Assembly: GCF_002894645.1 (NCBI RefSeq)
Contig: NZ_NCQY01000030.1
Location: 342,325 to 406,324, forward strand
DNA: 64,000 nucleotides
Direction: 5' to 3'
From: Salinibacter altiplanensis
GTDB lineage: Bacteria; Bacteroidota; Rhodothermia; Rhodothermales; Salinibacteraceae
Positions 9,721 to 58,594 of the stretch are shown here, piece by piece; the first letter of the stretch is position 1; every line of letters starts with the position of its first letter. The notes under the pieces were generated by a model that made no database searches, was not told the origin of the DNA, and was given only the letters and a program-made list of their open reading frames with translations. The position numbers were made by a program, and so were the translations under genes.

Positions 9721-10416
9721 TCAAGGGGCCCCAACCTGTACGGTTGCTCGCACGACGGCGGCTTTTCCATTGAGATGCGAACCCTCGTGGAGGTGAACAT
9801 CGACAGGCTCTACACAGACGTGCGATTCACCCGCGAAGGCCCGACGCACTTCGTCGACCGGGACCATCCGGTCCATCCGGCTGGGGCCCAGGCGGTCATA
9901 GTCACCAGTCAGGTGGGCGGGCCGAAGCCACTCGGCAAACATCCAGCCGCCGGGCCGTACCAGGGTTTTTAACAGCCGATACAGTCGGGGGCGCTCGTCG
10001 GGAAGCAACTGCAGAAACGTAACGAGGGCCGCGTCCCACTGCCGACTGGGCTGCCAGGTACGCACATCTGCCTGTATGGTGTTGAGCGATAGGTCTTCAG
10101 CCATCGCCCACTCCTGTGCCGTTGCGAGGGCCGTCTCTGAAAAATCGACCGCCGTGGCGTGGTGGCCGTGTGCCCGGGCGAGCCAGGCCGGCGTGCGTCC
10201 CTCCCCTGCCCCCAGCTCCACGACCGCACTCTCTGGGGGCAGGCGATGGGCCTGTTCCTCCACGAAGGCATTTGGCTCCGCCCCAAAGAGCGGCTCGTCC
10301 CGCTCGTAGCGGACATTCCAGAATTCCGGGTGGCTGCTCGAGCGCGAGGAGTCGGACACGGAAGCGAAGGAAAAAGACCGGGTGGACGGCTCACGAAGAG
10401 GTACGCGGGGATCCAT
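9721..10416 (-). CDS. Class I SAM-dependent methyltransferase
   Basis: 231 residues. Motif I is VVELGAGEGRTPAWLA, followed by ATAVDFSETAL (acidic loop), QADVRTWQP and LLKTLVRPGGWMFAEWL. This resembles TehB/methyltransferase-25 type enzymes whose substrate cannot be told from sequence. The ATG at 10416 lies inside the end of the upstream pepF gene (26-base overlap in another frame), so the two are probably translated from one message. A later start near HPEFWNVRYERDEP is possible. Confidence 0.8.
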   Translation of the reverse strand: MDPRVPLREPSTRSFSFASVSDSSRSSSHPEFWNVRYERDEPLFGAEPNAFVEEQAHRLPPESAVVELGAGEGRTPAWLARAHGHHATAVDFSETALATAQEWAMAEDLSLNTIQADVRTWQPSRQWDAALVTFLQLLPDERPRLYRLLKTLVRPGGWMFAEWLRPAHLTGDYDRLGPSRMDRMVPVDEVRRAFAGESHVCVEPVDVHLHEGSHLNGKAAVVRATVQVGAP

Positions 10417-43518: not shown

Positions 43519-44922
43519 TTACCTCCGCTCGTCGTTGTTTTGCCCCACGGAGTCTCCGGGCGCTTCGTCGGGCTCCGGAAACTCGGCGTCTTCGGATGTA
43601 CCAATTCGATCCAGTGCTTCACGCGCTTGCCGACGTCGCTGATCCAAAAGATCGTCGTCCGTCTTCTGCTCCGCACGCGCCTGCAGGGGATCGACCACCT
43701 CCGCCCGCAAGACGATCATCAACTCCTGCTTCGTCACGTTCGTCTGCTCGGTCCCAAAAACGTAACGCAGCCCGAAGAACCAGCCCGGGAGATCTTTAAG
43801 AATGGGCACCCCGCTTCGGGAGGTCGTCTTTTGGGTCGAAATCAGCCCCCCAATGGCGGTCGCCTCGCCGTCGACCAGGAGAATCTGCGTGTTCGCCTGG
43901 TTCCGATTGATGATGGTTCCCGAGGGGCTCGGCTGGCTGTTTGAGTCCTCCACCTTTACGTCCATGTGCACAAAGTCCACGACGGGCGCCTCCGCCGTGT
44001 CCGCCACCGGCTGGCTAATGAGCGTTGGCGTCACGTCGACGATCACACCTGTCTCGAAAAACTCCGTGACCGTGTTGCCGGAGAAATCGGTGGTCTGGAT
44101 GGGAATGTCTTGACCAATCTGTATCTGCCCCTGCTCGCCGCTCTGAACCGTGATCTGAGGATTCGAAATGGTTCGGCCGATGTTGTCCTGTTCGAGGAGG
44201 TTGAGGAAGCGGCGAAACCGAGAAAGGGAAATCTGGTCCGGCGGCTGGAGAATGCCCTCGACGCTATCAAAGAGATCCCCGGTGTCGATTGTGAAGAGGC
44301 TCCCCCCTCCTTGCTGGCCCCCAGCCCCTCCTTGACCGCCCCCGCTTTGTCCTCCGCCCTGTCCTCCAGTTTGTCCCCCGCCTTGTCCTCCTTGATTAAT
44401 GGACCCGAGGAGATCATCCCAGCGCAGGCCGAGGTCGCGAACCTTCGTGAGGTTGAGATTGAAAAGGACCGCGTTGATTCGAATTTCGCGGGTCCCGATC
44501 TCGGCAGGAAGCGTCTCCGAAGGCTCCGTGGAGGCCGTCTCCGTGTTTTCGGACTCCTCCGCCGGCTGTACGAGAAAGGCCGTCTCGGTTTCTCGAAAGA
44601 CAAGGCCGTTCACCTCCAAGACGTTCTCGAACGCATCGAGGAAGTACGTTCCCGACACGGAAACGCCGATGGGCCCGGAGCGATTGCCCGGGTCAACGAC
44701 GGGCTTGTCCAGCTCCCGCTCAAAGATCGGACTAATGAGCTCAATGAACTGGTTGAAGGGGGTGTCCTGCTCAAACGACACCAGCAGCTCAGGAGAGATG
44801 TTGCGGCGCGTCTTCTGCCGCTCCGGCCGGTCTTGGGCCTCGGCGGGCAGACAGAAAAGGCTCCCCCAGGCGAGGATGAGAAGGACCGACACAAGACCTC
44901 GGAGGCGGGAAGGGCAGATCAT
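43519..44922 (-). CDS. pilQ: Type IV pilus secretin (PilQ/GspD-like)
   Basis: 467 residues, short for a secretin. Signal peptide about 1-29 (MICPSRLRGLVSVLLILAWG, ending AEAQ). A small N-domain with VSVSGTYFLDAFENVLEVNGL resembles the STN/N0 type. A Gly/Gln-rich insert (about 174-208) interrupts the start of the secretin domain. The domain itself has NPQITVQSGEQGQIQIG, VDVTPTLIS and RSGVPILKDLPGWFFGLRYVF, then TKQELMIVLRAEVV. The tail is acidic. Forms the outer membrane gate for pilus fibres. Confidence 0.9.
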   Translation of the reverse strand: MICPSRLRGLVSVLLILAWGSLFCLPAEAQDRPERQKTRRNISPELLVSFEQDTPFNQFIELISPIFERELDKPVVDPGNRSGPIGVSVSGTYFLDAFENVLEVNGLVFRETETAFLVQPAEESENTETASTEPSETLPAEIGTREIRINAVLFNLNLTKVRDLGLRWDDLLGSINQGGQGGGQTGGQGGGQSGGGQGGAGGQQGGGSLFTIDTGDLFDSVEGILQPPDQISLSRFRRFLNLLEQDNIGRTISNPQITVQSGEQGQIQIGQDIPIQTTDFSGNTVTEFFETGVIVDVTPTLISQPVADTAEAPVVDFVHMDVKVEDSNSQPSPSGTIINRNQANTQILLVDGEATAIGGLISTQKTTSRSGVPILKDLPGWFFGLRYVFGTEQTNVTKQELMIVLRAEVVDPLQARAEQKTDDDLLDQRRRQAREALDRIGTSEDAEFPEPDEAPGDSVGQNNDERR

Positions 44923-45037
44923 GAACGCAGGGCGTCGGCGGTGCGAAAGATCACAAGCGAGAAGCGAAGACGGGGGCGGGGGCCTCGGGGCCGGGATCGC
45001 GGGGCTTTGCTACCGTGGACTGGAGCAAGGACTATTC

Positions 45038-46030
45038 CTACGGATCCGTGGGCGCCCCGCCGCCTCCGTTCCGGAGCCGGAGGGGACTCTCTGAGCCCAG
45101 TGTGCGCTCGACGCGATCCACGATTCCTCCTCGGTTCAGGCGCGCCACGACTCGCCCCTCCGACGGGCGTACGTCCACGATGCGCCCCAGGTACACCCGG
45201 TCCCCCTCCCCCACTCGCTGAAGTTGGCCTTCGGCCTGGAAGACGGCTTTCCCGTTCACAATGGAGACCAACTGTGCAGACTCGACGTTCAGGCGGTCGT
45301 ACTGGTTGGGCGGCACCTCTTCGAAGACGAGAGGGTAGAATGGGTTGATCTCAGGCGCAGGCTTGGGGACCACCGAAGACGGGAGCGGAGGGCCAGTGGA
45401 GGCCTGCGCCACCGGCAGCCGTCCGGCCTCTTCCCCTTCGGAAGCGGAAGTCGGTGCGGGCAGACCCGTGGCGGCTCCGTAAATGGCCTCCACATCCATG
45501 TCAAACGAAACGAGGACCTTCATGGTGGTGCGCCCGCTCTCCTCGTCGGTCTCTCGTTCCTCAAGATAATTTAGGCTCAGGCCGCGGACGCGGTAGAACG
45601 GCCGGTTGTTTTCGATCGTCCAGACAAACTGGTAGAGGTTTGTAAAATAGGCCTTTCCCTCTGCATTGAACGTGTGCACGCTGTAGCCGTCCCGGTCCTC
45701 CGGGCCGGCCGACATCACGTCAAACTGCTGGAACCCCGTCTCAGTAAGTTCGGTGAGGTAGGACACGATGTCCGGAGACGAGATTGTCGCGGGCACCACC
45801 TTGTACTGAGTCCGCCACCGACGGCGAACGGTTTTCAGCCGTGACTCCGCGTTGGCACGATCGGCGCGGAGGGATCGAATTTCCTCCCGTCGTTGCTTCT
45901 GCTCCTCGATCTGTTGCTCTAGCGTGGCGATCGTGTCCTGCTGGCGAAAGTACGTGAGGTAGGTGCCCACGCCGGCCACCAGGACCAGACAGGCGGTGAG
46001 CAAAATTTGATTGGAGTCGAGCCGAAACAT
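45038..46030 (-). CDS. PilO-PilP fusion, pilus alignment protein
   Basis: 330 residues. The first part is PilO-like: one membrane segment (about 8-27), a coiled coil (about 30-70, EQQIEEQKQRREEIRSL), and a PilO ferredoxin-like domain (about 75-190). After a Pro/Ser-rich linker the C-terminus (about 235-330) resembles PilP: INPFYPLVFEEVP, QLVSIVNGKAVFQAEG, VGEGDRVYLGRIVDVRPSEG. In most bacteria PilO and PilP are separate. PilN is fused to the upstream gene. The call rests on pattern and position. Confidence 0.75.
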   Translation of the reverse strand: MFRLDSNQILLTACLVLVAGVGTYLTYFRQQDTIATLEQQIEEQKQRREEIRSLRADRANAESRLKTVRRRWRTQYKVVPATISSPDIVSYLTELTETGFQQFDVMSAGPEDRDGYSVHTFNAEGKAYFTNLYQFVWTIENNRPFYRVRGLSLNYLEERETDEESGRTTMKVLVSFDMDVEAIYGAATGLPAPTSASEGEEAGRLPVAQASTGPPLPSSVVPKPAPEINPFYPLVFEEVPPNQYDRLNVESAQLVSIVNGKAVFQAEGQLQRVGEGDRVYLGRIVDVRPSEGRVVARLNRGGIVDRVERTLGSESPLRLRNGGGGAPTDP

Positions 46031-46081
46031 GCGTCGTCCGCAAAAGGCGAGAAAGAGTGCGTGCCGTCGGAGATTCTCGTG

Positions 46082-48307
46082 TCAGGCCGAGCGTTCCGGG
46101 TCCGATTGATCGGGCGACGTAGACGGCGAGGCGGCCTCGGTGGGGGCTGTGTCGTCCTGCGCGTCCGTCGTCTCGAGCAGCCAGGCTCCCTTCGCGAGGG
46201 TGCCGTTCAGGTCTTGAAGAACCGAGAGTGCGTTCTGGACGGAGACGAACTGCCCGACCCCCACCCGGTACCGCCCATTTTCCGAGCTGTGCCAGATTTG
46301 GACCGGATGGGAATCATCCCCCAGGCGCTCTCGAAACCGCCGCACCGCCTCCTCGGCCGCTTCGCTTTCCAGCACCGAAGCCACAACGACCGTCCAGATT
46401 GAGGAGGCCTGATCGGTTGTGTCACGACGTGCTGCCGTATCTGCGCCTGATTGGTTTCCTCCACCATCGGCGGTTCTACTGGTATCAGGGCCGGCCGGAG
46501 CCGTCGCAGATTGCTCGTTTGGGGCTCCGGAGGAGTCTGAGGCGGGCGGCGGTGCAGTCGGCCCTGCCCCCACCGCCTCGTTCCCGCCGGCCAGCTGCTC
46601 GCCCCGCTGCTCTCGCCAGTACTCAATGGCCTCCGGCTCGGTGGTATCGAGTGGCACAGTCAGTTCAAAATCGAACAGCGACACGTCCCGCGTTTCTGTA
46701 AACGTGAGCTCCAGGATGCTGCCGTCCAGTCGCTGCGCCAGTTCAATCACCTTCGACCGGTCGGTGGACCGGCCGAGGACGGTGATGTCCGTTCCAGACT
46801 GCGGGCTCCACTGATCGAGGGTAAGGCCCCGGATGTCGTTCATCTGTCTCGTGATGGTGGCCAGCCCGCTGCTCCACTTGTTGCTTCCACGCAGGAGGGT
46901 GTGGATCGTCTCGTTTGCCTCGGTATACTCGGTCGTCGCGGCCTGCAGGCTGTCGATCCGCCGCTGGAGTGCCTCCCGGTCCACACGGCTCACCGTCTGC
47001 TGTAGGGGACGCAGCTCGGAGCGCTTCTCAGTAATGGTGCTCGCGTTCACGTAGTAGAGCCACACGAAGCCGAGGGTTACGACAGCGAGGAGCGTCAGGA
47101 GCGCGGGCACGGGCCACCCCACCGGGAGGCGCAGGCGACTCGCCTCGTACTTCTTCGCCAGCATGTTGACGGGCTGGAAGTACGACGCGAACTCGGCGTC
47201 GTCAAGCAGGCGAAGCGCCACGCCGGTGGCCCCCACATACGCCTCTCCCTCGGTGTCCTCTCCCCCGGGCAGGTGTGACCGCAGCACGTGGAGCTCGGCC
47301 GTGGAGAAGTACGACTTGAACGCACTGGCGAGCACCTTTTCGTCCTCCTCCGCGACGAGCATGAGGTGCTGCACCTGTCCCATCCCGTACTCGTCCTGCA
47401 GAAGGAGAACGCGACTGCAGATGGTCTCGGCGGAGTCCTCCGCCGTCAGCTCCGGAAGGTGCTCCGACTGGCGAAGCGTGCTGCCCTCGATGAAGAGGAC
47501 GAGCGTATCCTCGGTCCCGGAGCGCACGAAGATGGTCTTCTCGGGCGTGCCGGGCGGCAACTGAAGCACCGAGCGGGCGAGGCCCAGGTACAGGGACACC
47601 TCCGCGTCCAGCAGCCGCGTCTGCGGAGAGCGGGACAGGGTCTGGTCCTGCATCGCCTCGAGGGTGGACAGGACCGGGCCGCCGGGCCGCGCAATCAGGG
47701 CCAGCACCCGCTGGAACCCATCGCCCGTGCGGTGCATCGGCACGAAGCCCACCCGCTCCTCCTCCACCGTTCCTTCGTACTGGTCGTCCAGCATTTCCAG
47801 AAGCGTAGATCGGGACGCCGGGAGGGGAAGCCCGTGATCCGTCTCTTCGGCCTCCTCCTCATCGGTCTCGTCGGGCGGGAGACGGAGCTCTACGTCGTCG
47901 ATCTGGGACGTGGTGTTGCAGAAGGCGATCCTGGGGTCCTCGTATCCCCGCTCGGCACACTCGTCGAGCAGGGTGTCGAGTTCCACCTGAAAGCTCCAGA
48001 CCTCTTCGCCGTCGTTGGGGGCCCCGAGGGCCTCGTCCCCCTCACCGATGGTATCAAACTCCGATCCCATGAACATGTCATCGCCCCCACCCCCCTCGTC
48101 GCCAAACTGAATGGTGACGTCGTCAGGCTCCTCTTCGACGTCGGGCGCCATGTCGCCCGGCTCCTCGAACGGAAGGTTCTCCCCGTGAGGGTCCGACGGG
48201 CCGGACGACCACCGGAACTGGACGGTCGTCTCCTCCTCCGTACGGTCCAGCAGCACCGCGTGGAGGGTATCGGCCGATACCACTATGCCAAGGGCGTATG
48301 AGCTCAT
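46082..48307 (-). CDS. PilM-PilN-SPOR fusion protein
   Basis: 741 residues. The N-terminal about 390 residues look like the actin-like PilM fold: MSSYALGIVVSADTLHAVLLD and later FVRSGTEDTLVLFIEGSTLRQSE, with an acidic insertion at 45-105. One membrane segment at about 396-420 and a PilN-like coiled coil and domain follow (421-560, LQQTVSRVDREALQRRIDSL, LTLDQWSPQSGTDITVLGRS). An Ala/Pro/Gln linker leads to a SPOR domain (about 637-712, SIWTVVVASVLESEAAEEAV). SPOR domains bind denuded peptidoglycan. pilT lies 64 bases upstream. Confidence 0.75.
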   Translation of the reverse strand: MSSYALGIVVSADTLHAVLLDRTEEETTVQFRWSSGPSDPHGENLPFEEPGDMAPDVEEEPDDVTIQFGDEGGGGDDMFMGSEFDTIGEGDEALGAPNDGEEVWSFQVELDTLLDECAERGYEDPRIAFCNTTSQIDDVELRLPPDETDEEEAEETDHGLPLPASRSTLLEMLDDQYEGTVEEERVGFVPMHRTGDGFQRVLALIARPGGPVLSTLEAMQDQTLSRSPQTRLLDAEVSLYLGLARSVLQLPPGTPEKTIFVRSGTEDTLVLFIEGSTLRQSEHLPELTAEDSAETICSRVLLLQDEYGMGQVQHLMLVAEEDEKVLASAFKSYFSTAELHVLRSHLPGGEDTEGEAYVGATGVALRLLDDAEFASYFQPVNMLAKKYEASRLRLPVGWPVPALLTLLAVVTLGFVWLYYVNASTITEKRSELRPLQQTVSRVDREALQRRIDSLQAATTEYTEANETIHTLLRGSNKWSSGLATITRQMNDIRGLTLDQWSPQSGTDITVLGRSTDRSKVIELAQRLDGSILELTFTETRDVSLFDFELTVPLDTTEPEAIEYWREQRGEQLAGGNEAVGAGPTAPPPASDSSGAPNEQSATAPAGPDTSRTADGGGNQSGADTAARRDTTDQASSIWTVVVASVLESEAAEEAVRRFRERLGDDSHPVQIWHSSENGRYRVGVGQFVSVQNALSVLQDLNGTLAKGAWLLETTDAQDDTAPTEAASPSTSPDQSDPERSA

Positions 48308-48371
48308 CGACTCGAAACAGTCAGCGTCTCAGAGTGAGAAATGGCCGTACGGAAAGCAGAACGGGACAGTC

Positions 48372-49646
48372 CTAGAACAGGCGACGGAGGCGCTTCTTGT
48401 TGTTGGCGTAGTCCATCGCGTGCTCGGGCTTGATTTTTTTCTTTCGCACGAGGCGGTAGAGGTCCTGCTCGAGGGTGGTCTGTCCCTGCTTCCCCCCCTC
48501 CCACATCATCTGGTAGACCTCGCCCACGTTGTCATTCTTGATCGCCGCGCGGGCGGACGAGCCCACCCAGAGCACCTCTTTCGCCATCTGCCGCCCCCCG
48601 CCAACCTTGGGAAGCAGCTGCTGCGAGATCACGCACCGGAGCACGTCGGCGAGGCGGTGGCGCACGCGCTCCTGCTCCTCGGGCGGCACCTCCGCCACGA
48701 TGCGGTCGATGGTTTCCATCGCCGAGGAGGTGTGGAGCGTAGAAAAGACCTTGTGGCCCGAGTCGGTAATTTCGAGGGCCGCCTGGATCGTCTCCGGGTC
48801 GCGCATCTCCCCGATGACCACGATGTCAGGGTCTTGGCGCAGGGCCTGCGTGATGCCGGCCTTGAAGGTCTCTACGTCTTTGCCCACCTCGCGGTGGCGC
48901 ACGATGCACTTCTTCGGCTTGTGCATGTACTCCACCGGCTGGGCAATGACGACGACATGCCCAGGAAAATCTTCGTTGTTCGCGTCGATGATGGCATCGA
49001 GCGTGGTGCTTTTCCCCGACCCCGTAACGCCGGTGATGAGGGTGAGCCCGTCCCGCACGTGCCGGAACATCATGCCCTTCTGAATTTTCTCGTGGAAGCC
49101 CAAGTCCCCTAGGGCAAACACCTCGTCGGTGATGGCGCGCATGTTGAGGGCGGCGTGGTCGTAGTCCGAATACGCCGTGGCCCGGAAGCGGCGCGGTCGG
49201 CCGTCGTCTCCCGTCACGTCCGTCAGCCGGTACGAAAAGTCCGCCGCCCCCTCGTTCAGAAGCTGCTGGGTCTGCTTCTCGTTGAGGAGGTTGAGAACGA
49301 GGACGTCGGTCGCCAGCGGGTCGTATCTCCCGAACGCCTCCTCGCGTCGCTTTTCGCCGTCGACCCGGTACCAGATGTTGCCGTCACAGGCCCGCCCCCC
49401 GAGGTCCATGTCGCTGGCGTCGAGTGCCAGGGTCCGCTGGACGAACCGGTTTACGTGGTCTCGGAGGGCCGTCTCTTCGTTTGGCGGGAGCGAGGCGGTC
49501 TGCTCCGCCAGGTACCGGAGCCGCCGCTGGCCCCGGTACCCTTGGGGGATGGACTCAATGATGCGCGTGCAGGCCTCCGGCACGTCCTCATCGGCCGTGG
49601 CGCCGGGCTGCGCGGGGGCCGTCGCGGAAGAGGAAAAATTTTCCAT
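48372..49646 (-). CDS. pilT: Type IV pilus retraction ATPase PilT
   Basis: 424 residues. Walker A is LITGVTGSGKSTTLDAIID (about 204-222), Asp box HVVVIAQPVEYMHKPKKCIVRHRE, Walker B DPDIVVIGEMRDPET and His box HKVFSTLHTSSA. There is no tetracysteine zinc motif, as expected for PilT rather than PilB. The AIRNLIRE retraction motif reads AIKNDNVGE, a variant. The N-terminal 80 residues are longer than typical. The start MENFSSSATAPAQPG at 49646 is chosen. Powers retraction and twitching motility in the family. Confidence 0.88.
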   Translation of the reverse strand: MENFSSSATAPAQPGATADEDVPEACTRIIESIPQGYRGQRRLRYLAEQTASLPPNEETALRDHVNRFVQRTLALDASDMDLGGRACDGNIWYRVDGEKRREEAFGRYDPLATDVLVLNLLNEKQTQQLLNEGAADFSYRLTDVTGDDGRPRRFRATAYSDYDHAALNMRAITDEVFALGDLGFHEKIQKGMMFRHVRDGLTLITGVTGSGKSTTLDAIIDANNEDFPGHVVVIAQPVEYMHKPKKCIVRHREVGKDVETFKAGITQALRQDPDIVVIGEMRDPETIQAALEITDSGHKVFSTLHTSSAMETIDRIVAEVPPEEQERVRHRLADVLRCVISQQLLPKVGGGRQMAKEVLWVGSSARAAIKNDNVGEVYQMMWEGGKQGQTTLEQDLYRLVRKKKIKPEHAMDYANNKKRLRRLF

Positions 49647-49773
49647 GATCGGATGTCTCTCAGAACAAAGCACGCGGACCCATGACCGGTAGGCTCGCCG
49701 GGATTCGTCATACACCACAAGATTCGCGCCGACGATCTAGAACCAGGGGGCCGTGAGGGGTTTGCATGGGAAA

Positions 49774-49800
49774 AGGGCTCACAGGTCACCCGTGAGCCCT
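49774..49800 (-). terminator. Terminator closing the pilC-pilB-minor protein run
   Basis: AGGGCTCAC (49774-49782) pairs with GTGAGCCCT (49792-49800) around nine bases. On the minus strand a short TTTT run follows. It separates the gene at 49860 from pilT and suggests two transcripts in the pilus region. Confidence 0.65.
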
Positions 49801-49859
49801 CTCCCACCCTGTTTCTACCAGGGTCTGTGATTACGAAATGAATCCCATTCCCAACAGGA

Positions 49860-50864
49860 CTACGATGAATTTGAATTCGGATCCGTCAGCGCCACGTCGA
49901 ACACCTGGTCGCTGAAGTCCGGAACGCTCCCGTAGTCCTCCAGGTCGCGAAGGCCCTCGCCATTGGACTCCCATCCCTCGCCTCCGTACGTCTTCTGCCA
50001 CCGATCCCAGCCTCCGTCGTATCGCGGATAGCCATTCTCCTTGATGTCCCACAGCTGGGCCTCCGAAAAGACCCGCTGGTCTTCGAAGGACACCCGCCAG
50101 CCGTCGGACGATCCGATGGTCGTCTCCTCCACCATGCCGTACGGCGCTTCCCGCATGGTATTGAGCTTATCGACGTCCTGCTTGAAGGAAAACTGGGTGT
50201 GGTCGTAGTCGTCGGGAAAATTGGCAGACTCGCTGCCTTCGTGGCTGCAGTTCTTGTCCACGGCCAGAATGAAGTTCAGCCGCGTTCCCGACTCGATGGT
50301 CTTGTCGTAGCTCGCGGAGGTGCCGTTGCGGTTGTTGCCGGGCGGGAAAATCATTTCGGGGTCGGGCTGATCCTTCGGCTTCGTGCCCGGCTTCACCCGC
50401 TTCAGGTAAATGGCCGAACAGTAGCCGGCCATCGACTGCTCGAACGTCACGTTGAGCTGACTGGGGACCTCAACCGTCGGGGCGTCCATCTTGTTGTTCG
50501 CGTATCCCCCGAGACGGTACTCCACGGTCGAATCCGCCACCGAGAACCGACTGACCGACACGGCTGTGTAGGCCGAGGAGCTTATTTTCTTCAACCAGGC
50601 CTTGTACGTCCCTCCCTCGTACTCTCCCTGAACCGTATCGACCTCGGAGACGACTTCCCCAACCTCTTTGTCCGGTTCGTCGGTCTTGTGGGCCTCGGAC
50701 AACACCGAATTGTATCCGGTCCGGGCAATCTGACGGGCGATGACCTCCCCCTGACGGAGCGACTGGCGTTCTCTCGTGTCGAGGGACGTTTGGTTTCCCT
50801 GGAATGCAAGAACGGTCACGGCGCCGACGACCGATAAGCTGAGAAGCAGACTGAATTTGCCCAT
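49860..50864 (-). CDS. Minor-pilin-like membrane-anchored protein
   Basis: 334 residues. The start MGKFSLLLSLSVVGAVTVLAFQGNQT gives a single hydrophobic helix at residues 4-21, like a class III or very-short-leader pilin. A coiled, basic stretch follows (TRERQSLRQGEVIARQIARTG), then a soluble Ser/Thr-rich domain. It resembles the PilX/PilW-type minor pilins by position and layout only, no family motif being clear. It lies last in the run behind pilB. The upstream open frame (to 51041) has no similarity and is left out. Confidence 0.6.
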   Translation of the reverse strand: MGKFSLLLSLSVVGAVTVLAFQGNQTSLDTRERQSLRQGEVIARQIARTGYNSVLSEAHKTDEPDKEVGEVVSEVDTVQGEYEGGTYKAWLKKISSSAYTAVSVSRFSVADSTVEYRLGGYANNKMDAPTVEVPSQLNVTFEQSMAGYCSAIYLKRVKPGTKPKDQPDPEMIFPPGNNRNGTSASYDKTIESGTRLNFILAVDKNCSHEGSESANFPDDYDHTQFSFKQDVDKLNTMREAPYGMVEETTIGSSDGWRVSFEDQRVFSEAQLWDIKENGYPRYDGGWDRWQKTYGGEGWESNGEGLRDLEDYGSVPDFSDQVFDVALTDPNSNSS

Positions 50865-50946
50865 GGCAAGTGTGTATTGTTTGTGTAAAGGTTGTTTTGG
50901 CCTCCTGACAGCCGAGTTCGTCCCCCTCATCCGACGGGGGCATTTC

Positions 50947-51774
50947 TCAGGGCTTCCCCCTTGAGCGGCCCCCTTTTCCACCGGGGCATTTGTTGGAGCC
51001 TTTGCTTCCGCCCGATGCCGTGTACATGCACGCCGCCGCACACCCGAAGGGCGTGCCGGTCGGGTCCGTCATCTCTTTCCACCCCTTGGGCGTGCAACTT
51101 GCCGCGTTCTTCGGAACGTTGATTACACTGGCGTCCGATTGATCTCGGACGAGCAGGACCGATCCCACATGCGTGGCCTGTGGAAAGGTCTGCGCATTTT
51201 GGAAGGGCGATACGACGGAAAATCGGACCCGGACGCTATGAACCTGTTCTCCGTTGGCAGCCGGGTTGGCGACCGGATTGGCGTCTTTATCTAGCAGGGA
51301 AATCTTGAAGTAGCCGAGCGAAGAGGGACTCACCCCTTTGACATCAGACCAGGAGGACCAGCTCCCCGTCCCCATTTCCTTTCTCCGCTTCCTGCGAGTG
51401 AGTTCGTAAAGGGTCTTTTCCGTTCCATCGACCATGCGGGTCCCTTTCGGGCTCACTTTATACCGGGTGGCGATCCGGTATTCCTGATCGCTGCTACTGG
51501 CAGTGGTCGAGTCACGGTAGAACGTGAACTGAGTAGTGATGTCGGATCCCGTCGGGTTCTCAAACGGAGTCCGTTCGCTCTCTTCAAAGTTTTCCCCCAT
51601 CCGCTGGATGTCTTCCTCGAGCCACGAGGCGAAGGTCTGTGTGAGTTCCCCCATCCGATTCCGCGATACCTCCGCCACGCTGTTCTGCGTGGCCCGGGAC
51701 TGAATGGACAAAAGGATCAAGGTCGTCATCAATGCAACGACCGTGGCGGTTAAGTTATCGTAGAGAAACTGCAT
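50947..51774 (-). CDS. Minor-pilin-like membrane-anchored protein
   Basis: 275 residues from MQFLYDNLTATVVALMTTLILL at 51774 (an ATG at 51783 adds three). One N-terminal hydrophobic helix is followed by SIQSRATQNSVAEVSRNRMGELT and a beta-rich domain. The C-terminal quarter has four cysteines (CTPKGWKEMT and later) and a basic Gly/Lys-rich end. Resembles the PilW/PilV layout. No GFTLIE-type prepilin motif is present. Located between two similar genes behind pilB. Confidence 0.6.
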   Translation of the reverse strand: MQFLYDNLTATVVALMTTLILLSIQSRATQNSVAEVSRNRMGELTQTFASWLEEDIQRMGENFEESERTPFENPTGSDITTQFTFYRDSTTASSSDQEYRIATRYKVSPKGTRMVDGTEKTLYELTRRKRRKEMGTGSWSSWSDVKGVSPSSLGYFKISLLDKDANPVANPAANGEQVHSVRVRFSVVSPFQNAQTFPQATHVGSVLLVRDQSDASVINVPKNAASCTPKGWKEMTDPTGTPFGCAAACMYTASGGSKGSNKCPGGKGGRSRGKP

Positions 51775-51826
51775 GGCGGACAATGACTCTGTGAGGGGAG
51801 TCCGGCGTCGTACACCGCTGTCGCTT

Positions 51827-52339
51827 TTAGTAGTAGCTCAGGACCTCCGAAAATCGGATCGGATCGGTCAAGAAGGGGTCGTCCCCCGCGTCCTGGATAT
51901 AGATCACGACCTCTTTCCGAAACGTGGGCCCCGCGACCTCCTGCATGCTTGCATCCACGTAGTGGACCTCCACCTCGACGGTAAATTCCATGTCGAATTC
52001 CGGGGTCTCGAAGGTCTCAGTGCTGGGCTTCATGTCGTGAAAGTCCCCCACCGAGTCACAGGTTTGACTGCCTCCGAATGCCTGGCAGGCCATTCCTGTC
52101 TCGAACGAGTTCTTGAATTTCGAGGGGTCGGTAATCCGCTCTTTGGTCCCCCCCACGGTCGCCTCGTCGAACGCCCGCGCCCGGATCACCTCCATCGTCT
52201 GCATGCTCACCCCGAGGGCCATCTGCTCCATCTCCGACCGGACCACCTGCCGCTGCTTTTGCAGCTCCGTCTGCATCTGGTTGAAGTTGAAGAACGTGGC
52301 CATCATGAGCGCCAGAAGGGCCAAAAGCGTCTGTTGCAT
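51827..52339 (-). CDS. Minor-pilin-like membrane-anchored protein
   Basis: 170 residues. MQQTLLALLALMMATFFNFNQM forms the N-terminal helix, which continues into a charged heptad-like stretch (MQTELQKQRQVVRSEMEQ), as in pilin alpha-1. The remaining domain is beta-rich with two cysteines (MACQAFGGSQTCDS). No canonical leader or Glu5 is present. First of the three small genes after pilB, 106 bases behind it. Function is inferred from position. Confidence 0.6.
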   Translation of the reverse strand: MQQTLLALLALMMATFFNFNQMQTELQKQRQVVRSEMEQMALGVSMQTMEVIRARAFDEATVGGTKERITDPSKFKNSFETGMACQAFGGSQTCDSVGDFHDMKPSTETFETPEFDMEFTVEVEVHYVDASMQEVAGPTFRKEVVIYIQDAGDDPFLTDPIRFSEVLSYY

Positions 52340-52445
52340 GGCGACCAGTCTGCGTGTTGAACAGTGTGCCGAAGGGCTGTCGTCTTCCGCTCGCGGCGGC
52401 CTGTCGGCCGGGCCCCAGTGCGGGCAACCGGGGCCGGACGCGGGT

Positions 52446-54755
52446 CTACGTCGCCACCACCCGGACCATCTCCTCGACGGACGTCTCCCCGTTCAGAATG
52501 GACTCTCGGGCCGAGGCCTGGAGCGACCGCATACCGTCCTCCTGCTCCGCGTGCTTCCGGATGGCTCCCTCGTCGACAATGCCCTCCGCCTCAACGATCA
52601 TGTGGCGGATCGGCTCGGTGAGGTACAGGGCCTCCGCGATGGCCCGTCGTCCGTCGTAGCCGGTGCCGCCGCACTGACTGCACCCCCCCTTGTCGTCCGC
52701 CGCGTAGAACGTGCCGGTGGTGACCTCCTCCTCCGAGAAGCCCAGCTGCCGCAGCTTTACGGCGTCCGGGTTCCTAATCTCTTGCTTGCAGTTCGGGCAG
52801 AGCGTGCGGATCAGGCGCTGGGCCACCACCAGGTTGATGGCGTAGGCAATCAGGAAGGGCTCGATGTCCATCTTGTAGAGGCGGCTCACGGCACTCGGCG
52901 CGTCGTTGGTGTGAAGCGTCGAGAACGTGAGGTGCCCCGTGTTCGCGAGCTTGATGGCGAGCTCGGCCGTCTCCTTGTCCCGCATCTCCCCCACCATCAC
53001 CGTGTCCGGGTCGTGGCGCAGGATCGAGCGGAGGGCGTCTTTGAGCCGCAGCTTGTCGCTCAGCTTAATCTGCCGCGCCCCTTCGATGATGTACTCCACC
53101 GGGTCCTCAATCGTGAGGACGTTCTCGCCCGGCCCAATCACGCGGTGCAGCGCCGCCACGAGCGTCGTGCTCTTCCCGGAGCCCGTGGGCCCGGTCAGGA
53201 TGACCATGCCGTTGGGCTGGTTGATCGCGTGCTCGAACCGGTCGAGCGCCCGCGGCCCCAGCCCCAGCTTGGTGAGGTCCGTGATGACCTTGCGGTCGTC
53301 CAGCACGCGGATGACGACGCTCTCCGAGTCGATGTCCTGGTTGGAGCTGGCGATCGGCATGATGGAGACCCGGTACCGAATCCGAGTCCCGTCCACGTCG
53401 CGCTGAATGAAGCCGTCCTGGGCGGCGTCGCTCTCGAAGCGATCGACGCTCATCGCGTTGTCCTTGATCACCGACAGGAGGGCCTCCGGATGCACGCGAT
53501 CCTCCGTGTGCCAGTGGTTCAGGCGCCCATCGACCCGGAAGTGAATTTCGACCTCCTTGTTCGAGTTGGGATAGATGTGGATGTCGGACGCGCCCTCCCG
53601 CACCGCCTCCACGAGGGTGGCCTCGAACAGATTGATGAGCGTCGACCGGTTGATCTCCTCCTCCAACTTCTCCTCGTCGACCAGGTCTTCCTCCTCCTCA
53701 AAGTTCTGCCCGAGGTCGACGGTCGACTCGTCGTCGATGCGGTCCAGGTACTCGTTGTCTTTCGGGAAGGCCTCCGAAAGCAGCTCGTTGACGGCCGACT
53801 TGGGCGCGTACTGGAGCTCAAACGCACTCAGGTGGAGCGAGCGGGCCGCCCGATGCACCTCCGGGCGCATCGGGTCGTGGGTAATGAGGATTACCTTTTG
53901 TCGTCCCTCCGCGCGCTGGACGTGGTGGGGAACGAGCCCTAACTCAAAAAGCTGCTCCTGCTGGTCTTCGGTGAAGGTCTCAACCGTGGACCGGACGAAG
54001 TTCAGGTCGGGGCCTTGGGCTTCGAGGTCCGCCACCGAGAACGCGTAGATGCGGGCCGCCCGCTCGTAAACGACCTCCTCGTCTACCCTGTCCTGCTGAG
54101 CCAGTACCCGCCAGAGGGCAAGGTCCGCCTCTTCCGTGTCGCGCTCTGCCTGCGCGGCCTCCACCGCCCCCGCACTCACGACGCCCCGTCGAAGCAGCAT
54201 CTCCACGACCCGGTCATTGGTCCCGACCGAGGAGTTGGAGGCCATGCGGGAGGCGGCCTCGTCGATCATCTCGGTGTCAATCTCGGCCTCGAGCTCGTCG
54301 AGCGCCTCCTCCGGGCTCGGAAGACCAGGGCCCCCGTCGGTGGGGGCATCTACCTCCCGCGGATCGTCGAGGTCGGGGGCCGGAGCAGAAGGGTTTGGCG
54401 CCTCCTCCTCGGGGGCCGTGTCCAGGTCTCCGGGGGCTGGAGACCCGTCCCCGAGCGGCTCAGGGGACACGTCCGCCCCAAAATTCGTGTCTCCGGGGGA
54501 GTGGCCGTCCGACGTCGTTTCCTCGTCGTTGGGGGACACGGGCAAGCGGTTTCTCGCCGAGAACGGGGGCACGGCAAACCGAGGAGAATCCACCGGCCCC
54601 AGCGTCAGGGCCTCTGGACGAGGTCCTCCCCCCAAAGAACGGGACGGCTCTGTGGTCGAGCCCTCTTCTCCACGGTTCGGGGCAGAGGGAGAGGTCGTGT
54701 TCTCCTCCTCCGTCCGAAGAGAAAACGTATGGTCGGTGTCGGTCGAATTGCTCAC
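52446..54755 (-). CDS. pilB: Type IV pilus assembly ATPase PilB
   Basis: 769 residues, the extension motor. The first about 165 residues are an acidic, Pro/Ser/Thr-rich, probably disordered region. An MshEN-like domain (about 180-330) follows, then the core with Walker A LTGPTGSGKST (520-530), Asp box TIEDPVEYIIEGARQIK, Walker B DPDTVMVGEMRDKET and His box HLTFSTLHTND. The zinc cysteines occur in LCPNCKQEI (653-656) and CSQCGGTGYDG (692-695), diagnostic for PilB/GspE. pilC lies 56 bases upstream. Confidence 0.93.
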   Translation of the reverse strand: MSNSTDTDHTFSLRTEEENTTSPSAPNRGEEGSTTEPSRSLGGGPRPEALTLGPVDSPRFAVPPFSARNRLPVSPNDEETTSDGHSPGDTNFGADVSPEPLGDGSPAPGDLDTAPEEEAPNPSAPAPDLDDPREVDAPTDGGPGLPSPEEALDELEAEIDTEMIDEAASRMASNSSVGTNDRVVEMLLRRGVVSAGAVEAAQAERDTEEADLALWRVLAQQDRVDEEVVYERAARIYAFSVADLEAQGPDLNFVRSTVETFTEDQQEQLFELGLVPHHVQRAEGRQKVILITHDPMRPEVHRAARSLHLSAFELQYAPKSAVNELLSEAFPKDNEYLDRIDDESTVDLGQNFEEEEDLVDEEKLEEEINRSTLINLFEATLVEAVREGASDIHIYPNSNKEVEIHFRVDGRLNHWHTEDRVHPEALLSVIKDNAMSVDRFESDAAQDGFIQRDVDGTRIRYRVSIMPIASSNQDIDSESVVIRVLDDRKVITDLTKLGLGPRALDRFEHAINQPNGMVILTGPTGSGKSTTLVAALHRVIGPGENVLTIEDPVEYIIEGARQIKLSDKLRLKDALRSILRHDPDTVMVGEMRDKETAELAIKLANTGHLTFSTLHTNDAPSAVSRLYKMDIEPFLIAYAINLVVAQRLIRTLCPNCKQEIRNPDAVKLRQLGFSEEEVTTGTFYAADDKGGCSQCGGTGYDGRRAIAEALYLTEPIRHMIVEAEGIVDEGAIRKHAEQEDGMRSLQASARESILNGETSVEEMVRVVAT

Positions 54756-54811
54756 TACGACAACGCAAAATTAAGAACCCAGTCAGTTCAGATCGCCTCA
54801 CCTGTGCCTGC

Positions 54812-56167
54812 TTACATGCCCATCATGTCGGCCTGCGACGGCTGGATGAAGGCCATCTCCGCCGAAAGAATGGTGAGGAAAAGCACCCCGATGGCGATGA
54901 TGATGGACACCCCCGTCTGGATGCTCTCCACCGCCGCGTCGAGGCTCAGCTCCGTCTCCTGCTCGTAGTAGTCGGCCATCTGCCGGGCACTCTCGCGCAC
55001 GCTGCCCGTCTCGGCCCCGCTCTTAAAGCGCGTGATGGCCATCGAGGTGAACACCCCACTGGCCTTGAGCGCCTGCACGAGGCTCGCCCCCTGTGCCGTC
55101 ATCATGGGGATGGTCACGTTCCGGATGCGGTACTCCATGTACTTGTTGCCACAGGCCTCGGCCGCAATCCGAATGACCCGCAGGTTGTCCCCGGCCCCCG
55201 AGTAGAGAATCGCAAACACCCGGCAGAAAATTTCGATGTTGATCTTGTGGAGCAGCTTCCCGATGAGGGGGATCTTGATCATGTACTTGTGAAGGTAGAA
55301 TTTCCCCTGCTCCGTTCGGGCCCAGACGGCAAACGCCAGGAGGGGCCCCACCGTCCCGATCAGCACCCACACCCAGTACCGGTCCAGCCAGGCCGCCATG
55401 TCGAGCGAGAAGCTCGTAAGCGGCGGCATCGTCACGTCCATGCCCTCGAAGAGTCCTGCCGTGGCCGGCACGATGTACCAGATGTACCAGATCATCGCCC
55501 CAATCATGGCGACCGTGGTGACCGCCGGCATGATCATCGCGCTCCGGACCCGCGAGCTAAACTCGTCCTTCCGCTCCAAGAAGCGGGCCGTGGCCTCGTA
55601 GATCTCCGCCATGTTCCCGCTCTTGGAGGCAATGCCCAGCATGTAGGCCGTAAACTTGCCGAGCTTGTCCCGGTGCTTGTTGAACGCCTTCTCGGCGTTC
55701 ATCCCGCCCTTCAGGTCGGAGTTGAGGTCGCGAATGACCTGCTGGAGGCTCGTCGACGACACGTCGTTTACCAGCATCTCCAGCACCTCGTCGAACGGCA
55801 GATTCTCTCGGAGCAGGTTCGCCGCCAGCCGCACAAACATGATGAGGTCGTCCTGCGGCGGCGAGAACTCGAAGTCAAACCACTTCTTCCGCACCTTGAC
55901 CACCTCCAGGCCCATGTTTTCGAGGGCCTCCTCCACCTCCTGACCCGAGAAGGCCTTCTGCTCCCCCGTCTTCACGGTGCCATTCGGGTGGCGCACCTTG
56001 TAGGAGAAGGTCCGACGCTTCTTCAGGTCCGACGGCTTGAACCCGTGCTCGTCGGACAGGTCCTCCACCTTCTCGCGGGCCTTGCGCTTCGACGACGCCA
56101 TGATGGTGCCCTGCACCGACTGGCCGCCGGCCGCTACGCCCTGAAACCGGTATTCGCGAGTGGCCAT
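54812..56167 (-). CDS. pilC: Inner membrane platform protein PilC
   Basis: 451 residues from MATREYRFQGVAAGGQSVQGTI. The N-terminal cytoplasmic domain (KRKAREKVEDLSDEHG) leads to two T2SSF domains with three membrane segments (near 215-240, 265-290 and 425-447). Features include LAANLLRENLPFDEVLEML, AAEACGNKYMEYRIRNVTIPMM and GAETGSVRESARQMADYYEQE. It anchors the pilus motor. An ATG at 56326 would add 53 residues of intergenic sequence and is rejected. The first gene of the pilC-pilB run. Confidence 0.92.
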   Translation of the reverse strand: MATREYRFQGVAAGGQSVQGTIMASSKRKAREKVEDLSDEHGFKPSDLKKRRTFSYKVRHPNGTVKTGEQKAFSGQEVEEALENMGLEVVKVRKKWFDFEFSPPQDDLIMFVRLAANLLRENLPFDEVLEMLVNDVSSTSLQQVIRDLNSDLKGGMNAEKAFNKHRDKLGKFTAYMLGIASKSGNMAEIYEATARFLERKDEFSSRVRSAMIMPAVTTVAMIGAMIWYIWYIVPATAGLFEGMDVTMPPLTSFSLDMAAWLDRYWVWVLIGTVGPLLAFAVWARTEQGKFYLHKYMIKIPLIGKLLHKINIEIFCRVFAILYSGAGDNLRVIRIAAEACGNKYMEYRIRNVTIPMMTAQGASLVQALKASGVFTSMAITRFKSGAETGSVRESARQMADYYEQETELSLDAAVESIQTGVSIIIAIGVLFLTILSAEMAFIQPSQADMMGM

Positions 56168-56207
56168 GGCAAGGGAGGCTGGATTCGTCTGTTTTGATGT
56201 CTTTTGT

Positions 56208-56254
56208 GTAACTGTAGGAGTACCGAAAGTGTTTACTTTGCTCCTACAGATTAC
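56208..56254. promoter_or_regulatory. Inverted repeat upstream of pilC
   Basis: CTGTAGGAG (56212-56220) and CTCCTACAG (56241-56249) are perfect nine-base arms 20 bases apart. They extend to thirteen pairs if one base bulges (56208-56254). Located 41-87 bases upstream of the pilC start, it is a plausible operator or leader hairpin. The rest of this intergenic (56168-56512) shows no gene. Confidence 0.55.
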
Positions 56255-56512
56255 ACCCCACACACACTGTGCCGGATTTGGTCCCCGGCCTGTCGGCCTC
56301 TTCGTCCTGATTTGTTTGGGAGCCACCGTTTATTATCGACGCCATGAACGGAATCTTTACCTCCGCCTTCGATTGTCCTCTCCGCTAATCACTCAGAGGA
56401 TTCCATCCAGGAGGGCGTGCCACTTGTCACCAAAGCTGTACGGGTTGCCGAAGGGACCGCCCCAAGAATCGTCGGTCGCTCAATTCAGGGCGTCTCAGAA
56501 ATGCGCGGTGTC

Positions 56513-58075
56513 CTACCGGTCCCGTCGCGCTCGGTCGATCACCTCGGGATCCCGGACGTGAAGGAACCCCTGTCCCCAGTACCGAGGAGAGAACCGATTC
56601 CGATCCACTGCTTCTAACAGGGCGTCCCGCCGCTCGTCGACGGTCGTTAGATCTTTGAGACTGCTCCCCACCACTCCCATCGCCACGACCAGCAGCACGC
56701 ACAGCACCGCATGGGACATGCTTGAAGGGGCAGTCGTTGGCTCTTGCTGGAATTGGTAGCGGCCCCACGCCCACCCGCCGACCAATGCGAGAAAGACTTG
56801 GCTGATGGGCGTCACGAGCAGGCCACTGACCATGGCGTGGCTCGCTGCCGCCAACACCGAACCCACCAACGCCACCCGAATCCCATTGGCTTCTCCCGAC
56901 GCCCGTTTCGCCGCGCGGGCTTCCTGCCTCATCCAGCGCCAGCCGCCCCACACCGCGAGCCCCGTCATGACGACGGTCGACGGAAGTCCCCACTCGGCCA
57001 GCCACTGTAGAAGAGCGTTGTGGGGATGAGCACCAGTTGCGAAATGGAAAGGCGGCCAGGCAAAGTGCATCGGGCCCGCCCCAAACCAGGGATGCGCCCA
57101 GGCCAACTCCAAGCTCGTCGTCCACAATTGGAGACGTCCTGAATACGTCCCTCCCTCGGAAAACTTTTCGACCACTGGGGGGCTTTTGCCCGCCGAGAAG
57201 AGGAGATAGTACAACAGAAGTCCCGCGAGCAGACCTGCAGCCTGGATGAGAAGCCAGGGTTTCGCGCGGCGCCGAAACAACAATCCAACTCCCACGGCAG
57301 CTACACCCATCGCGACGATCGTCCCGCGCACATTGGATGCAAAAATCAACGCCCACCACAGCGCCATCAACCCAAATACCCCCCCTCGGGCTGTTTTCCA
57401 TGTCTTTGGGAGCACCACCACGATGCCCGCGAGGAGCGGTAGGGTCCAGGTTTGGTAGTGATTGAAGAAGCGGATATTGACGTAGTTCGTGCCACCCTCC
57501 GGCCAGAGTTTAATCTCCTCAGTCGTAAGGTGCATGCCGTAGCCTACCCCGAAAAACACGGCATAAAGCAGAGCACTGAGTGCTACTGCTCCGAGAATCC
57601 GGCGCTCCACATGCTTCGAGGTCCCCTGGACAGTAGATGCAACGATTCCTGCTGTGACGAAGAGCAACAGAAAGTGTCCGGCTTCCAGAAAACCGTAGAA
57701 AGACACTGGGGCCCACAGAGCAGACAGGAGCCCTCCTCCGAGCACCAAACCCAGCCCCCACTTCGCAACTGCTGGGAGCCATCGAAACGTCGCTAGCCAG
57801 CGTCGCCGAGTAGCCTGCGACATCAGCAGCACGCAGCCTACCAAATTTAAGAGGCCAATCTGAAGAACTCGCTTTTCGTTGTACAGACCTACCTCAGACA
57901 AGAACGAAAACGTGGGAACGAGGGAAACACATCCTAGGATAGACCAAAACAGGATTGAACTGATGGTGATCTTTTGGCCCAAGCATTGAGCAGTCTGGGT
58001 CGTATTTTGACCTTGGATGGCATTAATCATCAGCTTGGATCTCTTCAGTTCTAGCCTTTTTCTGCTTCTTTTCAC
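56513..58075 (-). CDS. O-antigen ligase family (Wzy_C) membrane protein
   Basis: 520 residues (505 from MINAIQGQNTT, 58030). About eleven to twelve membrane segments. The ligase loop holds WTTSLELAWAHPWFGAGPMHF and HPHNALLQWLAEWGLP, the HxHN-x-LQ-x3-E-x-G motif shared by WaaL, Wzy and PglL/PilO-type ligases. An extracytoplasmic glycosyl transfer is inferred. It lies between pilC and the pilin gene, as pilin glycosyltransferases often do, but a polysaccharide role is possible. Local AT content is slightly higher than in its neighbours. Confidence 0.85.
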   Translation of the reverse strand: MKRSRKRLELKRSKLMINAIQGQNTTQTAQCLGQKITISSILFWSILGCVSLVPTFSFLSEVGLYNEKRVLQIGLLNLVGCVLLMSQATRRRWLATFRWLPAVAKWGLGLVLGGGLLSALWAPVSFYGFLEAGHFLLLFVTAGIVASTVQGTSKHVERRILGAVALSALLYAVFFGVGYGMHLTTEEIKLWPEGGTNYVNIRFFNHYQTWTLPLLAGIVVVLPKTWKTARGGVFGLMALWWALIFASNVRGTIVAMGVAAVGVGLLFRRRAKPWLLIQAAGLLAGLLLYYLLFSAGKSPPVVEKFSEGGTYSGRLQLWTTSLELAWAHPWFGAGPMHFAWPPFHFATGAHPHNALLQWLAEWGLPSTVVMTGLAVWGGWRWMRQEARAAKRASGEANGIRVALVGSVLAAASHAMVSGLLVTPISQVFLALVGGWAWGRYQFQQEPTTAPSSMSHAVLCVLLVVAMGVVGSSLKDLTTVDERRDALLEAVDRNRFSPRYWGQGFLHVRDPEVIDRARRDR

Positions 58076-58099
58076 AGACTACTAGATTGGCAGAGAAAA

Positions 58100-58127
58100 A
58101 GGGCGGCCCCAAAACTGGGACCGCCCT
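58100..58127 (-). terminator. Intrinsic terminator of the pilin gene
   Basis: Arms 58100-58110 and 58117-58127 (eleven pairs with one mismatch) with a six-base loop. On the minus strand TTTTTCTC follows. It lies 36 bases after the pilin stop. Confidence 0.85.
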
Positions 58128-58162
58128 CTGACTTTCCTCAGATGGTGGGAGGCTGATTCATT

Positions 58163-58594
58163 TTAGCTGCTGAAGCTAGTAGAGACAGACTCATCGGCAC
58201 TCGGATTCACTGTAACTGTCACAGTTTGTGGGGCATCGCTGCTGGTACACTCAATGTCTGCACTACCACCTCCCACATTTTTGATTTCACACTTGCCGTT
58301 GCTACCTGCACCTTCAGCCGTAACCTTGGTGTCGGAGCTAGATGTGGTTTCATATCCCAGTTTGGTAACGATACCTGAGGCCGAAGCACCGCTACTAGTG
58401 AGATCAACTCCACCCATCTGCGACGGCTTTCCAGCAAGTCCCTGAATGTCCGAGGCAATCGATGTTCCCCGCTGCACGAGGGCATCCTGCGAGGCCTGGG
58501 CCTGGTTTTCGCTGAAGGCCTGGATGCCGGCCACGGTGGCCAGTCCGACGATGACGGTACTCAAAACGAGAAGTAAAAGCTGCTGCTGTCCCAT
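58163..58594 (-). CDS. Type IV pilin-like protein, probable major pilin
   Basis: 143 residues. It starts MGQQQLLLLVLSTVIVGLATV, so cleavage after Gly2 would leave a helix starting QQQLLL with no Glu at position 5. The following SENQAQASQDALVQRGTSIASDI continues alpha-1. The rest is a small Ser/Gly/Thr-rich beta domain with two Cys (CEIKN and IECTSS), which may form a disulfide. Short leader and GQQQLLL start recall pilin-like proteins I remember from Bacteroidota and Chlorobi relatives. It is single, with its own promoter and terminator, as expected for an abundant structural protein. Confidence 0.75.
   Translation of the reverse strand: MGQQQLLLLVLSTVIVGLATVAGIQAFSENQAQASQDALVQRGTSIASDIQGLAGKPSQMGGVDLTSSGASASGIVTKLGYETTSSSDTKVTAEGAGSNGKCEIKNVGGGSADIECTSSDAPQTVTVTVNPSADESVSTSFSS

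Follow-up and report, generated by a model that had tools for sequence, protein, structure and literature searches.

The pilus locus and its conservation

The stretch of DNA analysed here (the window, 64,000 nucleotides) is taken from contig NZ_NCQY01000030.1 (positions 342,325 to 406,324) of Salinibacter altiplanensis, whose genome (assembly GCF_002894645.1; 3.59 Mb) is 99.75% complete. Between positions 43519 and 58594, the minus strand of the window carries a locus predicted to encode a type IV pilus machine, the pilin-like proteins of which appear to lack a leader peptide. The genes are transcribed in the order pilA, a Wzy_C gene, pilC, pilB, psG, psF, psE, pilT, the genes for a 741-residue PilM-PilN-SPOR protein and a 330-residue putative PilO-PilP protein, and pilQ, and all parts were located (Table 1). 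An earlier note, made from the letters of this DNA alone, had described a coherent but divergent type IV pilus system with PilB, PilC, PilT, a secretin and a rearranged PilMNOP subcomplex, and profile and structure comparisons support this description. The T2SSE matches in the genome were the PilB and PilT of the locus and one weak match below the cut-off, hence the genome holds one such machine.

Relatives within the order, where the earlier note had proposed to check synteny, keep the gene order unchanged, and further families of the class and phylum keep it with varying minor pilins. The position of pilA near pilC and that of psE, psF and psG between pilB and pilT are constant, and PilT lies within nearly all loci examined. 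Of 244 class genomes, 141 carry the PilM-PilN protein (101 of the 162 high-quality ones), and this PilA was found in 128 of 394 phylum genomes, so that the label "lineage-specific", suggested before, proved too narrow.

Table 1. Predicted features of the pilus locus (window coordinates; aa, amino acids)
Feature	Position	Strand	Evidence
pilA, leaderless major-pilin candidate, MGQQQLLLLVL..., 143 aa	58163..58594	-	alignment, upstream stop, AlphaFold, VIA
Wzy_C / O-antigen-ligase family protein, possible pilin oligosaccharyltransferase	56513..58075	-	PF04932 E=1.3e-18
pilC, inner-membrane platform	54812..56326	-	T2SSF PF00482 E=1.5e-29
pilB, extension ATPase	52446..54755	-	T2SSE PF00437 E=5.4e-98; TIGR02533/TIGR02538 E<=5e-112, below cut-offs
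Minor pilin psG, leaderless, MQQTLLALLAL...	51827..52339	-	alignment of 23 rows
Minor pilin psF, leaderless, MQFLYDNL...	50947..51774	-	alignment of 28 rows
Minor pilin psE, leaderless, MGKFSLLL...	49860..50864	-	alignment of 30 rows; start by conservation
pilT, retraction ATPase	48372..49718	-	TIGR01420 E=6.3e-91, 305 bits vs cut-off 319 (14 bits under)
PilM-PilN-SPOR fusion, 741 aa	46082..48307	-	Foldseek, VIA, profile matches
PilO-PilP fusion, 330 aa	45038..46030	-	hhalign; GspM_XpsM model E=6e-4, below cut-off
pilQ secretin	43519..44922	-	PF00263 E=2.8e-32; TIGR02515 E=1.9e-26, below cut-off

The starts of psE (50864) and psF (51774) were set by conservation across relatives, both listed open reading frame starts being too early. 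The true start of pilC is likely near 56167; in many relatives, homology begins at about residue 54-58.

Pilins beginning at the membrane helix

All four pilin families (PilA, psE, psF and psG) begin at the hydrophobic helix. To describe the starts of PilA, we compared 101 distinct PilA-like proteins chosen by their N-terminal pattern, PilA departing from it being uncounted. Nearly all (98/101) begin with M/V/L-GQQQ, and ATG serves as the start codon in 96. In 73, an in-frame stop is found at most four codons upstream of the start, and in 87 at most eight; no ATG, GTG or TTG is present between stop and start in 96 (65 if all seven starts of translation table 11 are allowed); in the window, a TAA stands six codons upstream of pilA. 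In 87 of the 101 proteins, the upstream sequence leaves hardly any space for a leader, if any, and the class III signal peptide expected of type IV filaments is missing. A Shine-Dalgarno-like sequence stands before the PilA Met in 25 of 40 cases, compared to a mean of 2.6 after shuffling.

The minor pilins were examined in alignments of 30 (psE), 28 (psF) and 23 (psG) rows that exclude near-duplicates, open reading frames shorter than 130 aa and odd starts. An in-frame stop was found within eight codons upstream in 15/30, 18/28 and 13/23 of them, and no ATG, GTG or TTG lies between stop and start in 24/30, 27/28 and 20/23, respectively. The remark of the earlier note that the pilins lack the usual leader therefore stands for PilA and for the minor-pilin families, and the minor pilins of further families in the phylum are likewise leaderless. 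Two upstream codons that would give a leader, the GTG at 51041 for psE and the TTG at 51783 for psF, were rejected, as the corresponding sites in relatives hold stops or lack a start codon.

The residues that follow the start differ among the families. Gly2 is conserved in PilA (39/41) and psE (28/30), while psF and psG have no Gly there. PilA has no Glu5, and 27 of 28 psF have D/E at residue 6, which would match the Glu5 of mature pilins if only the Met were removed. Lys or Arg is found among residues 2-6 in 24 of 30 psE, with almost none in PilA, psF and psG.

The AlphaFold model of PilA, built from 41 sequences (pLDDT 90.5, pTM 0.78), shows a helix over residues 2-55 followed by a five-stranded head, that is, the pilin arrangement of a long N-terminal helix on a beta-sheet head. 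When the model was realigned with VIA, PilA4 of Thermus thermophilus (6xxd) came first (Z 9.0, 113 residues, rmsd 3.8), with residues 2-143 of the model placed on residues 1-113 of the PilA4 chain. Type IV pilins fill 14 of the 15 top rows, the exception being 2i52 at rank 7, and the next unrelated group, FBPase, reaches Z<=4.3. The model resembles processed pilins from residue 2 onward.

Several variations on these genes were seen. In many loci, pilC is preceded by a tandem set of two to four pilA paralogues, of which one is often more divergent (L040, L049, L104, L109, L158, L162). The Salinibacter ruber plasmids NC_007678.1, NC_014030.1 and NC_014157.1 carry extra leaderless pilA copies annotated "hypothetical protein" (plasmid copies at 9991-10446 and 10560-11015 in L164, G003:C2), and pilin variants may therefore be exchanged via plasmids. 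Some relatives have a long psE of 541-606 aa (L051 14379-16001, L073 3086-4903), and FG-GAP or DUF7305 matches in some psE members suggest a tip adhesin. The Wzy_C gene, also found between pilA and pilC in many relatives, encodes a protein of the O-antigen ligase family that may glycosylate the pilin.

Search for a prepilin peptidase

The profile PF01478 (Peptidase_A24) had no match at E<=10 in the S. altiplanensis genome. A second model, A9, derived from 22 A24 sequences belonging to the phylum, gave E<1e-40 in 16 genomes of the class and E>3e-4 in the rest, and found none in this genome. By these two models, no prepilin peptidase adjoins the locus, as the earlier note had said, and none is found elsewhere in the genome. 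PF01478 does find A24 proteins in 19 of 244 class genomes and 51 of 394 phylum genomes, so the model works within the phylum.

Among 41 relatives, PF01478 matched in three, against 37 for T2SSE (34 over the cut-off). PilM-PilN and PF01478 occur together in 11 class genomes (one below the cut-off), leaving 130 of the 141 PilM-PilN genomes without a match (92 of 101 high-quality ones). PilA and PF01478 occur together in 15 phylum genomes, and 113 of the 128 PilA genomes lack a match. Contig gaps were rejected as the cause, as 16 of the 17 PilA-bearing genomes with at most three contigs also have none.

Where a genome bearing PilA or PilM-PilN does have an A24 gene, this gene usually keeps other company: in 18 of the 19 A24 stretches examined (L170-L185, L032-L034; the exception is L181), a canonical pilin of the form G|[F..]xxxE lies near it, in a separate locus. 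In four A24 stretches (L186-L189) of genomes that lack the system, the patterns used found neither motif. All 16 class genomes with a strong A24 match also carry N_methyl motifs, and the search for N_methyl pilins in the S. altiplanensis genome found none. In twelve class genomes, N_methyl motifs occur and A24 does not; nine of these genomes are less than 90% complete. A gene pair with canonical N_methyl motifs was also seen in the f16 family (G046:C4:443400-443818, G073:C50:3444-3847, G043:C1:3264132-3264553 and similar); in G046 and G073, it occurs without a detectable prepilin peptidase.

Fused alignment proteins

The earlier note had placed PilM, PilN and a SPOR domain in one protein, and this was confirmed with the SPOR match just short of its threshold. 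The AlphaFold model of the 741-residue protein, from 25 aligned sequences, has a mean pLDDT of 71.9, with core parts above 90. Residues 1-370 are predicted to fold as PilM; the top Foldseek match is Pseudomonas aeruginosa PilM (5eox, E=7e-12), and the best VIA match is PilM-PilN of T. thermophilus (2ych, Z 21.6), with cyto-EpsL at a Z of about 14. A VNLLP-like PilN motif near residue 380, kept in the cytoplasmic stretch, aligns with HofN (E=0.0027). It is followed by a membrane helix (about 399-432) and by a PilN part (about 445-552) that matches Myxococcus xanthus PilN (3jc8_Na) in a profile search (E=1.2e-9). The SPOR-like stretch (about 638-698) matches PF05036 with E=0.0007 and 20.3 bits, the cut-off being 21 bits. 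The tail occurs in close relatives, where matches reach residue 724 or beyond in 7 of 12 other genomes of the genus, and is absent from most of the order, where they end at about residue 567-617. No separate pilM, one of the genes whose presence elsewhere the earlier note had named as a refutation, was found in the genome: the sole other match to the PilM family is FtsA, encoded between FtsQ- and FtsZ-like genes.

A second fusion, of PilO and PilP, had also been suggested and received weaker support. The N-terminal half of the 330-residue protein aligned with a PilO-like alignment (hhalign E=4.4e-4) and the C-terminal part with a PilP-like one (E=2.9e-3), against E=0.06-0.65 for three control pairs; Pfam PilO/PilP and the single Escherichia coli sequences HofO and HofP did not match it. 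These weak similarities hint at a PilO-like part followed by a PilP-like part.

Some genomes of the order contain two pilus loci (L041, L043, L048, L052, L053), their PilM-PilN being about 30% identical to that of the window. In one second-system copy (L048 7499-10286), the PilM and PilN parts are in separate open frames, as a split or degraded fusion.

GspL of the type II secretion system (T2SS) combines an actin-like cytoplasmic domain and a PilN-like periplasmic part in one protein. As the PilM-PilN fusion shares this layout, we set the fusion aside as the chief novelty of the locus. What is unusual is that pilins without leaders occur in a genome where no prepilin peptidase could be detected. 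The earlier note had mentioned the leaderless pilins, had made the fusion stranger than it is, and knew of the missing peptidase only locally.

A proposed pilus without prepilin processing

The gene set and order, the missing leaders, the failure to detect a peptidase, and the modelled folds of pilin and PilM point to a type IV pilus machine in which translation itself yields the mature pilins, a reading to which we give a probability of about 0.75. The broader proposal is that a pilus branch spread across the phylum (Bacteroidota in the GTDB sense) abolished the prepilin step, with leader, peptidase and N-methylation needless for the insertion, extraction and polymerisation of a retractable filament; we hold this to be probable, with somewhat less assurance. 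Each pilin would start with the membrane helix that forms the fibre core, would enter the membrane with its N-terminus facing the cytoplasm, and would lose at most its initiator Met (Gly being at position 2 in PilA). We infer that such pilins could be assembled without leader cleavage, so that no prepilin peptidase would be needed. PilB and PilC would extend the fibre and PilT would retract it, the GspL-like PilM-PilN fusion and the PilO-PilP fusion would link the motor to the PilQ secretin, and the SPOR-like tail might anchor the assembly to peptidoglycan.

Several observations weigh against this reading. The pilus is predicted from sequence and models. Foldseek by itself found nothing at E<=0.001 for the PilA model (best sensible row PilA4, E=0.92), the best three PDB matches of the PilA profile are pilins with weak E of 0.13-0.67, and the minor pilins gave nothing significant in PDB, Pfam pilin or NCBIfam searches. 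Shine-Dalgarno-like matches are weak for psE (8/30, shuffled mean 2.1) and psF (8/28, shuffled mean 2.9 and maximum 8) and no better than chance for psG (1/23, shuffled mean 1.3). PilB, PilC and PilQ score about equally on T2SS models. Over the 394 phylum genomes, PilA and A24 are associated neither positively nor negatively (Fisher p=0.75), since both are absent from most genomes; we therefore claim no overall exclusion, only one conditional on having the system. Finally, G046, G073 and G238, at least 98% complete, carry N_methyl motifs without detectable A24 and leave some room for a missed or different peptidase.

These three genomes are also among the arguments for an ordinary divergent type IVa pilus with fused alignment proteins, in which the peptidase is too divergent or of another family and the initial Met-Gly is a two-residue leader. 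The position of Gly2 in PilA and psE, near that of the canonical -1 Gly, could be read in this way, and absence was tested only by PF01478 and A9. We consider this explanation unlikely: psF and psG have no such Gly, the space ahead of the start often measures 0-5 codons, published leaders are 6-26 aa long according to PMC4471445, and even the phylum-tuned model finds no A24 in the genome itself. It is slightly less probable still that the locus encodes a T2SS or a short pseudopilus instead of a retractable pilus. PilB and PilC do score best on GspE and GspF models, the PilM-PilN fusion resembles GspL, and the Bacteroidetes T2SS of Cytophaga, according to PMC5553014, affects cellulose use and not motility; on the other side stand the retraction ATPase PilT in nearly all loci and the clustering of Bacteroidetes T2SS with type IVa pili reported by Denise et al. 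(PMC6668835). This alternative would alter the function and not the leader question. The weak sequence matches to known pilins could also mean that the small proteins are uncleaved, membrane-anchored accessory proteins and that the true pilins are encoded elsewhere. This seems very improbable given the confident PilA model and its pilin neighbours in VIA, the lack of any N_methyl pilin in the genome, and the constant place of these genes near pilC and between pilB and pilT.

If pilins are indeed made in mature form, a large natural group without leader and peptidase would separate the roles of the leader (targeting, topology, holding subunits back) from the needs of assembly, and would make the reasons for pilin processing and N-methylation testable in nature. 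Surveys relying on the leader motif or PilD will miss such pili, as the annotation of the S. ruber plasmid copies shows. Searches of open-licence PMC papers (bioRxiv not covered) listed no paper reporting type IV pilins without a leader, and these systems may be within the 2019 survey of type IV filaments (PMC6668835) as "generic".

Comparison with known systems

Type IV pilins are defined, in the reviews PMC4471445 and PMC10191384, by a class III signal peptide, a hydrophilic leader ending in Gly or Ala and cut by a dedicated prepilin peptidase. This enzyme is listed among the universally conserved components in PMC4471445, which names Nanoarchaeota as the only phylum without a detectable one. 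Of the traits shared by type IV filaments, the extension ATPase and polytopic platform are present here as PilB and PilC, and the genome lacks a detectable dedicated peptidase.

The nearest likeness is to the type IVa pilus (PilMNOPQ-PilB-PilC-PilT), with which the locus shares core motors, platform, secretin, the PilM and PilN folds, a pilin-like PilA and three minor pilins; PilT, PilM and PilN, expected of that family, are all found. It differs in that PilM-PilN is fused, as PilO-PilP may be, all pilins are leaderless, PilA lacks Glu5 and the peptidase is undetected in most genomes. Like GspL of the T2SS, PilM-PilN is one protein; unlike in a T2SS, which is expected to secrete substrates and to have no retraction ATPase, PilT lies in the locus, and the best structural match is to PilM and not to cyto-EpsL.

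The Bacteroidetes T2SS-like cluster chu_3191-3201 of Cytophaga hutchinsonii resembles the locus in its composition, with E, F, D, pseudopilins and PilM/N/O/P-like proteins, but has its own Peptidase_A24 gene (CHU_3197) and a classical T2S-G, according to PMC5553014. MSHA loci likewise have no peptidase gene, yet their genomes have one elsewhere, from another system, according to PMC6668835, whereas most genomes here have none. The S. altiplanensis machine would thus work like a type IVa pilus yet appears to depart from two features by which that family is defined, the leader and its peptidase.

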